DNA of 33,502 bases, from assembly GCF_000177675.1 (NCBI RefSeq), contig NZ_ADGX01000092.1, positions 1 to 33,502 on the forward strand, given 5' to 3'. Of the stretch, positions 5,488 to 17,122 are shown piece by piece; position 1 is the first letter of the stretch; every line of letters starts with the position of its first letter. Below the pieces are notes generated by a model. It was not told where the DNA came from. It was given only the letters and a program-made list of their open reading frames with translations, and did not search any database. Origin of the DNA: Parafrankia sp. EUN1f (GTDB taxonomy: Bacteria > Actinomycetota > Actinomycetes > Frankiales > Frankiaceae). The position numbers were made by a program, and so were the translations under genes.

Positions 5488-6090
5488 TCAAAGGCCGAAC
5501 GCGCCGCCTTCGACGAGGATCAGGACACCGAGGCCGATCAGGACCAGCGGCAGCAGGATATGGCCCCGGCGGGCGAGCGCCCCGGCGATGACCGGGCGGG
5601 TGGCGAAGAAGCGGCCGGCGAAGCACCACACCGCCACCAGCACGAGGAACACAGACGTGTACACGGCCATCCCGCCGACTCCCGCGGTGGCGAAGACGGG
5701 TACGTAGACGCCGATGTTGTCGCCGCCGTTGGCGAAGGTGACCGCCGCGACCTCCAGCGGGCGCGGCCCCCCATCCCTGGTCTGTACCGACTCGTCCTCC
5801 CCGCCGCCACGGCGGTTCCTCCACGTCTGGGCCGCGGCTTTGAGACCCAGGGCCAGCGGCAGCAGGCCGAGGTAGGGGATCGCGGACTCCGGCAGGAAGG
5901 TGGCGCCGAACGCAGCGGCCACCGCAACGGCGAGGATCGCGCTGAAGCCGACGTACTGCCCGAGCACGATTCGGCGAGTGGAGTCACGATCGCCGGCGCC
6001 TTGGGCGAAGAAAAGAGCCAGGACCACGATGTCGTCGACGTTGGTGACGGCGAACAGGCCCGCCGCCTGCCCGATGATGCCCAGGTTCAC
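5488..6090 (-). CDS. CadD-family cadmium resistance transporter
   Basis: A 200-residue polytopic membrane protein with about six helices. Family signatures are visible near both ends: TNVDDIVVLALFFAQ at the start and FANGGDNIGVYVPVFA in the second half; these paired acidic motifs are typical of CadD/LysE-superfamily exporters. Family members export or confer resistance to cadmium and related divalent metals; the substrate here is not proven. The start is GTG at 6090, with GAGGAG about 13 bases upstream as a rather distant ribosome site. It is divergent from the GPP34 gene, with a 109-bp shared promoter region. No metal-responsive regulator (ArsR/MerR) gene is adjacent. Confidence 0.88.
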   Translation of the reverse strand: MNLGIIGQAAGLFAVTNVDDIVVLALFFAQGAGDRDSTRRIVLGQYVGFSAILAVAVAAAFGATFLPESAIPYLGLLPLALGLKAAAQTWRNRRGGGEDESVQTRDGGPRPLEVAAVTFANGGDNIGVYVPVFATAGVGGMAVYTSVFLVLVAVWCFAGRFFATRPVIAGALARRGHILLPLVLIGLGVLILVEGGAFGL

Positions 6091-13432: not shown

Positions 13433-15616
13433 TCAGGGGCTGGTGAGGATGACGAGCTGCTGGGTGGCGCGGGTCATCGCGACATAACGGTCGACGGCTC
13501 CTTCGATGCCGTCGCCGAAGGCCTTCGGGTCGACGAGGACGACCAGGTCGAACTCGAGCCCCTTCGACAGCTCCGGTGGCAGCGACCGCACCCGCGACGT
13601 CGCCGCGAACGTGGGATCGCCGATGACGCAGGCGGTCCCGTCGGCGTTCGCGGCAAGCCAGGTGTCGAGCACCGAGCCCAGCTCGGACGTCGACCCGTAC
13701 ACGACGGGGAGGCCGCTGCTGCGGATCGAGGTCGGCACGTTGGCGTCCGGCAGCGCCGCGCGGATGACCGGCTCGGCCGCGGCCATGACCTCCTCGGGGG
13801 TGCGGTAGTTGACGGTCAGCGACGCCAGCGTGATCCGGTCGAAGCCGACCCGCCCGATCCGTTCCTGCCACGACTCGGTGAAACCGTGCCGGGCCTGGGC
13901 GCGGTCCCCGACGACGGTGAAGCTGCGGGACGGGCAGCGTGCCAGCAGCATCTGCCACTGTGCGTCGGTCAGCTCCTGGGCCTCGTCCACGATGATGTGC
14001 GCGAACGGGCCGGCGAGCAGGTCCGGGTCGGCGCTCGGCAGCGCGGCGGAGTCGACGAGGGTGTCCCGAAGGTCCTGCCCGCGCAGCATCGTCATCGCGC
14101 CCTCGCCGTCGTCGTCGGCCGCGAGGAGGTTGTCGATGACCCTGGTCATGCGCTCCTGTTCGGCCGCGGTCGCGGCGGACTGCCGGCGTCGGCGGCGGGC
14201 TTCGGCCGGGTCACCGAGGCGGCGGCGGGCCGCGTCGAGGTACGGCAGGTCGGAGACGGTCCAGGACCGGCCTCGCGGGCGCTGGAGCCGGCGGATTTCG
14301 TCCGGGCTCAGCCACGGCGCGCATCTGCGCAGGTAGGCGGGCACCGACCACAGGTCCGCGACCAGGTCGGCCGCCTCAAGCAGCGGCCAGGCGTTGTTCA
14401 GGGCCGTGAGCAGCTCCCGGTTGCGCAGCAGCGACCGGCGGACCAGACCGGCCGTGGCCTCGCCGCGGTCGCCGCCGTCGGAATCCATCCCGGCGGCGTC
14501 GATGTGCTTGTCCAGCAGGATCGTGAGCAGCTCCGCCAGGACCCGGTCACGTGCCTCGTTGTGCGGGGTGCCGGGCTCCGGCGCGTCGAAGGCCTCGGCC
14601 CAGTCGTCGGGGCCGAGCCACAGCTCCGACCAGCCGGTCGTGATCGTCATGCCCTGGGTGGGGGGCTCCTCGTAGAACCGGACGGCCGCCTCGATCGCCC
14701 CCACCAGGTCCGCCGACGACTTCAGCCGGGCCACCTCCGGGTCGGCCTCGACCACCGCCGCCGCACCTTCGATGACCAGGTCGCGCACGGTGCAGGTCTG
14801 CACGCCCTCCTCGCCGAGGCTCGGCAGGACGTCCGCGACGTAGGCCAGGTACGGCTGGTGCGGGCCGACCACCAGCACGCCACCCCGGCGGGCACCGACC
14901 CGGGCGTCGGAGTAGAGCAGATAGGCGGTGCGGTGCAGCGCGACGACGGTCTTGCCGGTGCCCGGGCCGCCGTCGACGACCAGCGCGCCGTCGGACCCCG
15001 CCCGGATGATGGCGTCCTGGTCGGCCTGGATGGTGCCGAGCACGTCGCGCATGCGGGACGTCCGGCTGCTGCCGAGGCTGGCGATGAACGCGGACTGGTC
15101 GTCGAGCGCCGCGTGCCCGTCGAAGACGTCGTCGGTGAAGATCTCGTCCCAGTAGTCGCTGATCCGGCCGCGGGTCCAGCGGTAGCGGCGGCGGCTGGTC
15201 AGGCCCATCGGGTTGGCGTGGGTCGCGCCGAAGAACGGCTCGGCCGCGGGGGAGCGCCAGTCGAGCAGCAGCCGGCGCCCCGCGCTGTCGGTGAGGCCGA
15301 GCCGCCCGACATACAGCGGTTCGGGCTCGTCCGGGTGGACCATGCGGCCGAGGCACAGGTCCAGACCGAAGCGGCGCAGGGCGCGCAGGCGGGTGCTCAG
15401 CCGGTAGATCTCGATGTCCCGATCCATCGCCGCCTGACCGAGACCGCCGGGAGCCAGCCGCTCGGCGTCGAGGCGGCGGACCAGGTCGGCGATCGACTGC
15501 TCCAGGCTCGCCGCGATGGCCGCCAGGTGCCGCTCGTCGTCGGCGATCAGCTCCGACGCGGCCTTGGCGGCGAGATGGTCGGGAAGACCGAACGCGTTCG
15601 TCGTCACCGGATTCAC
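13433..15616 (-). CDS. helR: HelR-type RNA polymerase-recycling/rifamycin-resistance ATPase
   Basis: A 727-residue UvrD/Rep-like ATPase of the HelD/HelR group. The N-terminal helical arm (about 15-90, a coiled coil that enters RNA polymerase in this family) is followed by Walker A GGPGTGKT (216-223). Later come Walker B HIIVDEAQE, motif III VVGDRAQ, the VNYRT motif and the C-terminal VAMTRATQQLVIL. HelR proteins free stalled RNA polymerase and dislodge rifamycin in Streptomyces and Mycobacterium abscessus. The HelR rather than HelD assignment rests on overall sequence style and on the RAE-like palindrome upstream. The start is GTG at 15616, overlapping a leader ORF as GTGA; a second GTG three codons later (MTTNAFGLPD) is an alternative. 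A GGAG lies about eight bases before the first GTG. Confidence 0.85.
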   Translation of the reverse strand: MNPVTTNAFGLPDHLAAKAASELIADDERHLAAIAASLEQSIADLVRRLDAERLAPGGLGQAAMDRDIEIYRLSTRLRALRRFGLDLCLGRMVHPDEPEPLYVGRLGLTDSAGRRLLLDWRSPAAEPFFGATHANPMGLTSRRRYRWTRGRISDYWDEIFTDDVFDGHAALDDQSAFIASLGSSRTSRMRDVLGTIQADQDAIIRAGSDGALVVDGGPGTGKTVVALHRTAYLLYSDARVGARRGGVLVVGPHQPYLAYVADVLPSLGEEGVQTCTVRDLVIEGAAAVVEADPEVARLKSSADLVGAIEAAVRFYEEPPTQGMTITTGWSELWLGPDDWAEAFDAPEPGTPHNEARDRVLAELLTILLDKHIDAAGMDSDGGDRGEATAGLVRRSLLRNRELLTALNNAWPLLEAADLVADLWSVPAYLRRCAPWLSPDEIRRLQRPRGRSWTVSDLPYLDAARRRLGDPAEARRRRRQSAATAAEQERMTRVIDNLLAADDDGEGAMTMLRGQDLRDTLVDSAALPSADPDLLAGPFAHIIVDEAQELTDAQWQMLLARCPSRSFTVVGDRAQARHGFTESWQERIGRVGFDRITLASLTVNYRTPEEVMAAAEPVIRAALPDANVPTSIRSSGLPVVYGSTSELGSVLDTWLAANADGTACVIGDPTFAATSRVRSLPPELSKGLEFDLVVLVDPKAFGDGIEGAVDRYVAMTRATQQLVILTSP

Positions 15617-15684
15617 GCGAGCGGCTCCGAACCGAGGTGGATGTCCACCCCGCGTGGCTCGTTCGTCGACAGCGACACGTGCAT
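15613..15684 (-). CDS. Leader ORF of 23 codons, translationally coupled to helR
   Basis: ATG 15684-15682 to TGA 15615-15613. The peptide begins MHVSLSTNEPRG and ends HLGSEPLA. A good ribosome site (GAGGG) lies seven bases before the ATG. The stop overlaps the helR GTG by four bases (GTGA), and the frame differs from that of helR, so the two are distinct but coupled. No family is recognised. Its place between the RAE-like palindrome and helR suggests a leader peptide, possibly one that tunes helR translation. No Northern or ribosome data can be seen here, so expression is inferred. Confidence 0.55.
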   Translation of the reverse strand: MHVSLSTNEPRGVDIHLGSEPLA

Positions 15685-15741
15685 ATCGCGACCCTCGTTT
15701 CCGCAGTTCCGGCTTCGGTCCGCGATTCTGCGGTACAACCT

Positions 15742-15760
15742 GGGTCTTGCGGCAAGCCCC
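15742..15760 (-). promoter_or_regulatory. Rifamycin-associated element (RAE)-like palindrome
   Basis: GGGTCTTGCGGCAAGCCCC is a 19-bp near-perfect palindrome: nine-base arms with one mismatch around a central G. From memory, the published RAE upstream of rifamycin-resistance genes is GGGGCTTGCGGCAAGGCCC, which agrees at 17 of 19 positions. It lies 57 bp before the leader ORF and 125 bp before helR. A TTGCCG inside it could serve as -35 for a weak -10 (CAGAAT) 19 bp downstream; this promoter call is tentative. Confidence 0.75.
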
Positions 15761-15862
15761 CTGGCATGCTATAGCTTAAAAATGGCAGCAGGATGCTGCT
15801 CCGGCCCGAATCCGCTCTGCTGACCGAGACTGCTCTGCTCACCGAATCCGTCCCGCTGACGG

Positions 15863-17122
15863 TTACGGGGCGCCGCGGCGGCCGGCGCGGGCGGCGAACG
15901 AGTCCAGCGCGCTGAGAACCTCGGACGACTGCCACATCCGGTTGCGGGTGAAGCCGGTGAACTCGGTGATGATTCCGGCCTCCGCGAGTGGCGCGATCAC
16001 TCGCTGGGCGTTCTGTCGAGTGATCCCCAGCTCGGCCGCCACGGCCTGGGCGTCGACGACGGGCTGGCGCAGAAGCAGGTCCGCGAGCTGCCACGCCCGG
16101 GCGTCGCGCCGGATTTTCAGCCGATTCTCCCAACCGGCGCGGATCGCCCGCAGCTCGCTCGCCAGCTGGCGCCCGTTCGTGATCGCGGTGACCGACGCGG
16201 TCGCGAACCTTTCGACGATCGGGGCCACGTCGCCGTCACGGTAGGCGTCGAGGGCGTCGAAGTAGGCGGTGGTGTCGGTGAGCAGGCCGGCCGAGACCGG
16301 CACCGTGACGTTCCGGGTCAGGCCATGGCGACGCAGCATCGCGTGGACGAGCGCGCGGCCAGTTCGGCCGTTCCCGTCGGGGAACGGGTGGATCGTCTCG
16401 AACTGGGCGTGCGCGACGGCGGCCTGGCTCAGGACCGGAATATCGGCCCTGTTCGCGAAGCGCAGGAGATCCGCCATCAGGGCTGGGACGTGGCAGTGGT
16501 GCGGGGGTATGAAGGACGCCCCATGGGGCCCGTAGGAGTCGCCGCCGATCCAGACCTGCTCCTCGCGCCACCGGCCGCCGATGCCCGGCGCATGGCCCGC
16601 CATCAGCGCGGCGTGCATCGCGAGGACGGCGGATTCGTCCAGACGGTCGGCGAGGTCGAGGGCCGCCCGCATCGCGGCGACGTTGCCGACGATCTCGGCC
16701 GCGTTGCGTTTCTCGGTGCTGCCGAGCTCGGCGAGGGCGATCGCCTTGGCTCCCGAGGTGAGGTTCTCGATCCTGGAGGACGAGGCGGACTCGGAGCGGA
16801 GCAGCACGGAGGCGAACGGCGCGACCTCCGCGCCGAGCTCCGCGTCGAAGCGGGCGATCTCGGCCGAGGCGTCGTCCGCCATCGACGCCACGTGGCTGGG
16901 TAGAGCCGGAGCCCGGCCGGCGATCATCGGCACGACGGCGGCTCGATACGGACCCTGGTGGCGTGCGCGCATCCGGGTGGAGACCAGATCATCCGGGATC
17001 TTCGAGACCCAGTCGTGCTCCTCCCAGCCCAGGGCCGGCCAGCCGGTGCCGGTACCCGTGGCCGCGCCCGTGCCGACCTGGGTATCGACGGCCGGCTGGC
17101 CGCCCGACTGACCTGAAACCAT
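15863..17122 (-). CDS. Fic-domain AMP-transferase with N-terminal inhibitory motif
   Basis: A 419-residue Fic protein. The catalytic loop HPFPDGNGRTGR (245-256) is complete, with His245 as general base. An inhibitory motif of the (S/T)xxxE(G/N) form, SSRIEN (115-120), precedes it, which makes this a self-inhibited (class II type) enzyme. Thus no separate antitoxin is required, and none is encoded next door. The C-terminal part (about 340-405) looks like a winged helix, with ELGITRQNAQRVIAPLAEAG, so it may bind DNA. Fic enzymes transfer AMP to hydroxyl side chains of target proteins; the target here is unknown. The N-terminus before residue 40 is Gly/Thr-rich. A -10 box lies seven bases before the ATG, suggesting a leaderless transcript. 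Confidence 0.93.
   Translation of the reverse strand: MVSGQSGGQPAVDTQVGTGAATGTGTGWPALGWEEHDWVSKIPDDLVSTRMRARHQGPYRAAVVPMIAGRAPALPSHVASMADDASAEIARFDAELGAEVAPFASVLLRSESASSSRIENLTSGAKAIALAELGSTEKRNAAEIVGNVAAMRAALDLADRLDESAVLAMHAALMAGHAPGIGGRWREEQVWIGGDSYGPHGASFIPPHHCHVPALMADLLRFANRADIPVLSQAAVAHAQFETIHPFPDGNGRTGRALVHAMLRRHGLTRNVTVPVSAGLLTDTTAYFDALDAYRDGDVAPIVERFATASVTAITNGRQLASELRAIRAGWENRLKIRRDARAWQLADLLLRQPVVDAQAVAAELGITRQNAQRVIAPLAEAGIITEFTGFTRNRMWQSSEVLSALDSFAARAGRRGAP

Follow-up and report, generated by a model that had tools for sequence, protein, structure and literature searches.

A leader reading frame ahead of helR in Parafrankia as a probable relic of a rifamycin glycosyltransferase gene

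In Parafrankia sp. EUN1f the rifamycin resistance gene helR is preceded by a short leader open reading frame (ORF), which almost certainly derives from the start of rgt, a rifamycin glycosyltransferase gene that would once have been the first gene of the same operon. We analysed a 33,502-nucleotide stretch of this genome (contig NZ_ADGX01000092.1, here called the window), in which the downstream gene is helR by NCBIfam model NF041254 (1258 bits against a cut-off of 750). An earlier note had described a 23-codon ORF with a Shine-Dalgarno (SD)-like site between the palindrome of a rifamycin-associated element (RAE) and helR, its TGA overlapping the helR GTG. The coordinates bear this description out (Table 1); what the note overlooked is the origin of the ORF as an rgt relic. 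We think it fairly likely that the leader is both things together, the fossil first cistron of an RAE-rgt-helR operon and a device coupling ribosomes to helR; translational coupling of the leader to helR, taken alone, is a shade likelier.

The leader start as a relic of rgt

Compared with a consensus built from the starts of 11 intact rgt genes, the leader start matches at 25 of 33 nucleotides (nt), the best value among the 1,994 NTG sites in the window, where the runner-up reaches 21. A 23-codon open frame is unremarkable in GC-rich DNA, and both other frames of the leader stretch are open too (L010; L and G numbers denote loci and genomes). Two features go beyond chance, namely the match to the rgt start and the retention of frame across Frankiaceae, not the open frame itself. 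A blastn search with the module of L043 matches window positions 15648-15761 at 76% identity (E 2.3e-15). Leaders that have decayed less in other Frankiaceae begin MRVLLSTYGS... or MRVLLSKYGSRRDVEPLGRAAVRSRAL (L043) and MRVLLSTYGSCGDGGPLVGRAARLRAL (L038), and tblastn with intact Rgt finds L043 (E 1.3e-4), L038 (E 1.6e-5), L052 (E 3e-11, residues 1-74) and, outside Frankiaceae, L151 (E 9e-26, residues 1-72). A DNA search with one module returned the same order of RAE, 5' untranslated region (UTR), SD and start ahead of glycosyltransferase ORFs at L086, L091 and L103, while at L090 an rgt-type start stands ahead of a glycosyltransferase ORF without a recognisable RAE. The start lies 72-74 nt from the RAE in 17 of 20 Frankiaceae leaders (72 nt from the RAE CTTG to the leader ATG in the window) and 73-78 nt from it in 18 of the 20 intact operons with a recognised RAE.

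The leader after codon 12 most likely derives from the 5' flank of helR itself. From nt 37 onward, together with the first eight codons of helR, it can be aligned with the corresponding position of six loci at 33-36 of 41-48 nt, with scores of 18-22 against shuffle maxima of 15.5-18; these alignments are weak, and the helR codons account for part of them. Searches with the peptides were less informative. Pfam gave no match to the leader peptides, a silence that is expected because they have only 23-41 residues, and phmmer with the L043 leader against the PDB ranked designed alphaRep proteins top (E 7e-5), by summed weak repeats, with GtfB (1iir, E 0.07) and GtfA (1pn3, E 0.55) aligned 1-29 to 1-29 as a lead only. 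Among four candidates scored, no rgt was found in the window's genome at E up to 1e-130, a line below which shortened rgt genes such as those at L086 and L103 also fall. The same genome contains a second, better preserved rgt start, ATGCGTGTGCTGTTGTCGACGTATGGGTCGCGTGGGGAC, at L099 (G000:C377:5400-8500, near base 5849); this is an orphan relic with no recognisable RAE and no rgt, rox, rph, helD or helR match behind it.

Intact rgt-helR operons and their eroded forms

Three sets of helR loci were compared. Within Frankiaceae, where widening the search to the order yielded no further genomes, helR above the cut-off was found in 26 of 35 genomes (L117, L116 and L115 being used in place of L007, L041 and L054, which are cut by contig ends); L115 is itself cut by a contig end, with 149 nt upstream, which leaves 25 readable loci. 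A class-wide sample yielded helR above the cut-off in 136 of 393 genomes, and 135 upstream regions were examined, G226, a helR match without its start, being left out. A named set comprised the best 80 of at least 568 confirmed helR loci; it overlaps the class sample, and the tallies are not additive. Leaders were counted as having an rgt start at a match of at least 20 of 33 nt to the consensus.

A full-length rgt lies between RAE and helR in seven of the 135 class-sample loci. In these seven, Rgt (NF000354) is the sole family at E up to 1e-100 and covers at least 97% of the model, at 495-600 bits, scores at which these putative Rgt genes miss the strict NCBI cut-off of 800 bits. In the named set, 14 of 80 loci have a full-length rgt ahead of helR: Streptomyces inhibens, S. 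sp. NBC_00620, S. jeddahensis, S. sp. ISL-98, S. glomeratus, Actinomadura craniellae, S. sp. ISL-96, Nonomuraea typhae, S. sp. HD, S. albicerus, S. achromogenes (no RAE recognised), S. europaeiscabiei, S. ureilyticus and S. albiflavescens. The remainder of that set consists of 26 rgt-start leaders (15 ending near the helR start, eight upstream of it and three fused), four rgt fragments, 33 loci with only an RAE and three with neither. The 109 class-sample loci outside Frankiaceae comprise, besides the seven full-length genes, 11 rgt-start leaders, three rgt fragments without a start, 77 RAEs without a trace of rgt and 11 loci with neither, and the 26 Frankiaceae loci divide into 19 rgt-start leaders that stop at the start of helR, six RAEs without a trace of rgt and one locus with neither (L115). 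In both wider sets the majority of helR loci carry no rgt trace, or only some.

Several loci capture the erosion at different stages. At L036, in Frankiaceae, eight rgt codons run directly into the rgt-helR spacer, and this spacer with the first helR codons is identical at 183 of 213 nt to the intact operon L134 (score 149 against a shuffle maximum of 34). Both ends of Rgt are kept and the middle is gone at L225 and L246 (Streptosporangium minutum), and at L312 and L279 a full-length rgt itself ends at the helR start. At the level of sequence, these loci show that the intact, apparently ancestral arrangement and a deletion junction both exist for helR. At L315 (Streptomyces spinosisporus) the frame is fused into helR, reading VRTSLSAFDLP from a start at RAE+75, below the 20/33 threshold.

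Some further loci deserve description in their own right. In the f18/Streptomyces loci L145, L148, L154, L171, L183 and L315, rgt-like first codons (MRT.., MRV.., MCALLS..) follow the RAE in frame into HelR and look as if they had been turned into its N-terminus, the matches being below the threshold (14-18 of 38 or 17 of 33 nt). Six helR loci with no recognised RAE (L135, L142, L144, L153, L176 and L204) have by eye a common upstream block, approximately TTATAGCAGA..CCTCATGAG..AAATTTGGATCTAAGGTnnCnAACCTCAGATCGGAGCTGATG, with what also by eye is a hairpin-like repeat directly ahead of the SD; L006 and L117, from the window's genus, appear by eye to carry the end portion of that block behind the RAE promoter.

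Frame retention, ribosome coupling and rival readings

We compared the coding pattern of codons 2-8 between 19 Frankiaceae leaders and the 11 intact rgt genes, using the ratio of nonsynonymous to synonymous differences (pN/pS). The ratio is 0.247/0.276 = 0.89 in the leaders (n = 19, L046 left out) and 0.081/0.398 = 0.20 in intact rgt (n = 11), showing that, by this measure, amino-acid constraint on the Frankiaceae leader has gone. A start codon occupies the homologous place in 20 of the 25 readable loci and is absent from five; the 20 include L046, whose start is too decayed for the threshold. The leaders range from 13 to 135 codons, and relative to the helR start they end at +1 (16), -4 (three) or +10 (one), none of the 20 being fused to helR or extending beyond 10 nt past its start. 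A tree of helR DNA requires at least 14 changes in leader length and only three in frame, and the three frame-changed leaders all use a TGA 4 nt ahead of the helR start. If indel lengths were random modulo 3, about two thirds of the length changes should shift the frame, which gives P ~7e-4 for three of 14 (calculated by hand). The stretch from RAE to leader start served as a control, and there all five length changes alter the length modulo 3 (Fisher ~0.005, by hand).

These comparisons show a Frankiaceae leader whose frame appears to be retained while its peptide is free. The leader is probably read, because selection would keep its frame only if it were translated, an indirect argument, and the pattern suggests a leader that is translated and delivers ribosomes to helR. 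The layout of a coupled pair, in which a stop overlaps or abuts the next start, is found in the window (GTGA) and in all 20 Frankiaceae leaders (-4 to +10). By predicted pairing with the anti-SD sequence, the window's leader SD (-6.4 kcal/mol, against -5.8 at the helR SD) is good without standing out, as among 780 random upstream 15-mers the top 10% reach -6.6 kcal/mol; across Frankiaceae the leader SD is the stronger of the two in 15 of 20 loci, with one tie.

We propose the following history. The ancestral operon would have had an RAE promoter, rgt, encoding a rifamycin-inactivating glycosyltransferase, as its first gene and helR as its second. Internal deletions would have removed nearly all of rgt, leaving the RAE, the 5' UTR, the rgt ribosome-binding site and the start codon with a few further codons, now abutting the spacer ahead of helR. 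The former rgt initiation region would stay the ribosome entry point of the RAE transcript, where ribosomes would make a meaningless short peptide, stop at the start codon of helR and initiate anew (termination-reinitiation), in addition to those recruited by helR's own SD. In Frankiaceae, selection would preserve the reading frame, with its end on the start of helR, rather than the peptide. Translation of the leader, reinitiation and the benefit to helR are the part of this explanation that we infer; outcomes elsewhere, such as in-frame fusion (for example L315) and loss of the leader start, fit the same pressure. Termination-reinitiation has been described at overlapping ATGA/TGATG (PMC6728339, in the part available to us), and the helR leader resembles that system in its shared stop and start bases (here GTGA) and in an upstream ORF with an SD-like site; it differs in that the upstream cistron is an eroded gene start whose putative peptide is unconstrained.

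A number of observations weigh against coupling. The helR flank often has stops of its own at -7 or -4 and +1, and the overlap of stop and start alone is weak evidence because two of the three frames in which an ORF can enter that flank end close to the start. In the window's genus three of six genomes have no leader start, from which it follows that the leader is dispensable. Outside Frankiaceae the frame of rgt-start leaders varies: of the 11 in the class sample, five are fused in frame or run past the helR start, four end upstream and only two end near it. The helR SD is the stronger one in four Frankiaceae loci, and the mean of the leader SDs (-6.9 kcal/mol) is close to the -6.6 kcal/mol that the top 10% of random 15-mers attain. 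Both the modulo-3 null and the counts by parsimony are approximate, and the window and its sister G003 have to be counted as one because their leaders are nearly the same. It could accordingly be argued that the leader is merely a decaying rgt fragment, that helR relies on its own SD and that the overlap is accidental. The GGAG SD kept by helR would favour this, as would the loss of the leader start in some relatives, the stops often built into the helR flank, the variable frame outside Frankiaceae and leader SDs just moderately better than random 15-mers. The three frame changes among 14 length changes, against five of five in the adjoining UTR, the absence of any fused or overrunning leader among 20 and the stronger leader SD in 15 of 20 speak against it, and we consider such neutrality unlikely, though the most serious competitor to coupling by termination-reinitiation.

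The earlier note had proposed that ribosome behaviour on the leader controls helR translation, and its suggested check by alignment and codon substitution gives a divided answer: the frame is kept in Frankiaceae, while the peptide is unconstrained and five of 25 loci have no start. The coupled leader survives this check, with its 20 of 25 starts, ends confined to -4 to +10 and retained frame; the regulatory role is left unsupported, given the pN/pS of 0.89, the missing starts, the varying frame outside the family, ordinary single-sequence folds and silence of Rfam. In that regulatory reading, stalling, or the speed of ribosomes relative to a rifamycin-perturbed polymerase, would control helR translation or attenuation. 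Position, SD, overlap and the frame retained in Frankiaceae all fit it. The amino acids are unconstrained, with no conserved peptide or codon run among leaders of such different lengths; single-sequence folds of the leader region are ordinary (z 0.37 over 161 nt, z -0.86 over 66 nt), Rfam has no match there, and the part of PMC10719064 available to us (section 9) reports rifampicin induction of class II HelD as transcriptional rather than translational. Codon substitution pattern, folding and Rfam leave the regulatory peptide unsupported, nothing here points to drug sensing by the leader, and we regard this role as very improbable. Regulated leaders of the vmlR type (PMC9226507, as far as that source was available) also place a possibly translated stretch upstream of an antibiotic resistance gene; the helR leader differs from vmlR in that neither a constrained peptide nor an unusual fold was found for it, and in its drug, rifamycins targeting RNA polymerase and not the ribosome.

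Movement in the reverse direction, in which recombination pasted an RAE-rgt 5' cassette ahead of helR with no deletion of rgt from an operon, would fit the presence of the same rgt start ahead of other resistance genes in Frankiaceae and the lack of an intact rgt-rox or rgt-rph operon among 31 rgt loci (see below). The intact rgt-helR operons and the junction at spacer level argue against it for helR, and we rate it scarcely less improbable than the regulatory peptide; capture of this kind may apply to rox, rph and helD. The reading that the ORF arose by chance in GC-rich DNA and has nothing to do with rgt could appeal to the other open frames of the leader stretch. It was rejected on the first rank of the rgt-start match among 1,994 NTG sites, and the graded series from intact operon to stub and the L036 junction also stand against it, so that its probability is negligible.

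Promoter layout and the rgt start ahead of other rifamycin genes

The features around the leader are collected in Table 1. On the minus strand they follow in the order TATAGC, RAE palindrome, CAGAAT, GAGG, leader ATG, 23 codons and TGA/helR GTG; the helR GTG lies at 15616-15614 and has its TG in common with the leader stop, giving GTGA at 15616-15613.

Table 1 Features of the helR leader region in the window
Feature	Position	Strand	Basis or remark
helR, RNA polymerase recycling motor ATPase (rifamycin target protection), 727 aa	13433..15616	-	NF041254
Leader ORF, 23 codons (MHVSLSTNEPRGVDIHLGSEPLA)	15613..15684	-	ATG 15684-15682, TGA 15615-15613
Leader codons 1-12, probably rgt-derived (decayed rgt start)	15649..15684	-	rgt-start consensus match and blastn
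Leader remainder, probably from helR 5' flank; the rgt deletion scar would sit near its upstream end	15613..15648	-	weak alignments
helR's own SD, GGAG, inside the leader, 8 nt ahead of GTG	15625..15628	-	pairing -5.8 kcal/mol
Leader SD-like GAGG, 8 nt spacing to ATG	15693..15696	-	anti-SD pairing -6.4 kcal/mol
Probable promoter P2: TTGCCG (in RAE) - 19 nt - CAGAAT	15725..15755	-	CANAAT-like element recurs, by eye
RAE palindrome	15743..15761	-	exact GGNCTTGCSGCAAGNCC match at 15743-15759
TATAGC, probable -10 of the probable upstream promoter P1	15768..15773	-	recurs upstream of RAEs, by eye
Fic/DOC-family protein gene	15863-17122	-	next upstream of the helR promoter

An exact pattern search places the RAE palindrome upstream of helR in the window, and this is the sole exact match to GGNCTTGCSGCAAGNCC in the 9.35-Mb genome; degenerate RAEs would escape the exact pattern, and a site with one mismatch carries no weight, because a reversed control pattern matches eight places per strand at that tolerance. 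HelR and the RAE are described in PMC10719064, PMC8655204 and PMC12802891, each available to us in part. The locus resembles the RAE-controlled resistance genes (rgt, rox, helR) of other actinomycetes, as covered in the parts seen of PMC10719064 and PMC8655204, in its upstream RAE, its helR by NCBIfam and its two-promoter-like layout. PMC8655204 reports, in the part available, no clearly identifiable RAE for Frankia alni helR, whereas 25 of the 26 Frankiaceae helR loci examined here have an RAE, the 26th being cut short. For helD of M. smegmatis, the accessible part of PMC10719064 describes two promoters, with the RAE overlapping the -35 element of P2. At the putative P2 of the window and at homologous places, a 19-nt spacer follows a -35 element covered by the RAE palindrome. 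Such a layout, with a 19-nt spacer and a covered -35, resembles promoters whose activator must twist DNA.

The rgt start also occurs ahead of other rifamycin genes. We scored 19 further Frankiaceae loci (12 rox-like, five rph and two with a second helD) and found an rgt start in eight, matching at 21-28 of 33 nt and lying 69-75 nt after the RAE: rox-like L087, L094, L102, L107 and L108, rph L088 and L105, and helD L089. The stubs at 21 of 33 (L087, L094 and L105) are marginal because stub-free loci reach 17-19, and the start codon is lost at L087, L102 and L105. NCBIfam cut-offs for rifampin monooxygenase, rifamycin phosphotransferase and HelD/HelR are exceeded by L094, L088, L105 and L089; L107 falls below its cut-off, and L087, L102 and L108 are named by similarity to L094 only. 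At L094 and L107 the leader has 23 codons and its TGA overlaps the start of the gene (+1), L108 shows the same overlap by eye, with the gene start estimated by script placing the stop at -17, and at L088 the leader is fused in frame. Read with flanks of up to about 1.5 kb, the 31 rgt loci, two of which are neighbours, include no intact rgt-rox or rgt-rph operon, and deletion is therefore shown for helR only. A further locus, L113 (G023:C37:84500-87600), has an RAE followed at RAE+177 by an rgt-like start (MRVLLST, 24 of 33 nt) in frame with a 359-aa ORF whose sole NCBIfam match is weak (NF053874, E 2e-6).

The passages seen of PMC10719064, PMC8655204, PMC13246000, PMC13214531 and PMC12802891 mention neither a leader ORF nor an rgt-helR operon or a remnant of rgt. 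A literature search for a HelR leader peptide returned none, and for an rgt-helR operon none in the titles and beginnings of abstracts seen; earlier notice in primary papers (Surette 2022, Hurst-Hess 2022, Spanogiannopoulos 2014) is possible.

The occurrence of the rgt start at eight of 19 other loci implies that the rifamycin regulon may be partly assembled by a re-used rgt promoter and start. Tentatively, and as a possibility that falls a little short of probable, we suggest that the actinomycete rifamycin regulon was built in part by repeated re-use of the rgt 5' end, through deletion or capture before helR, rox, rph and a second helD, and that in Frankiaceae the leftover start was selected as a peptide-indifferent ribosome-loading leader whose sole conserved property is stopping on the start of the next gene. 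The living intermediates show a two-gene resistance operon, one gene to destroy the drug and one to protect its target, losing its first gene, with promoter and ribosome-binding site passing to the second. This would explain a class of short leader ORFs otherwise mistaken for sensing peptides, cautions that an upstream ORF ahead of a resistance gene need not regulate, and offers, for part of the RAE regulon, a history that can be tested.

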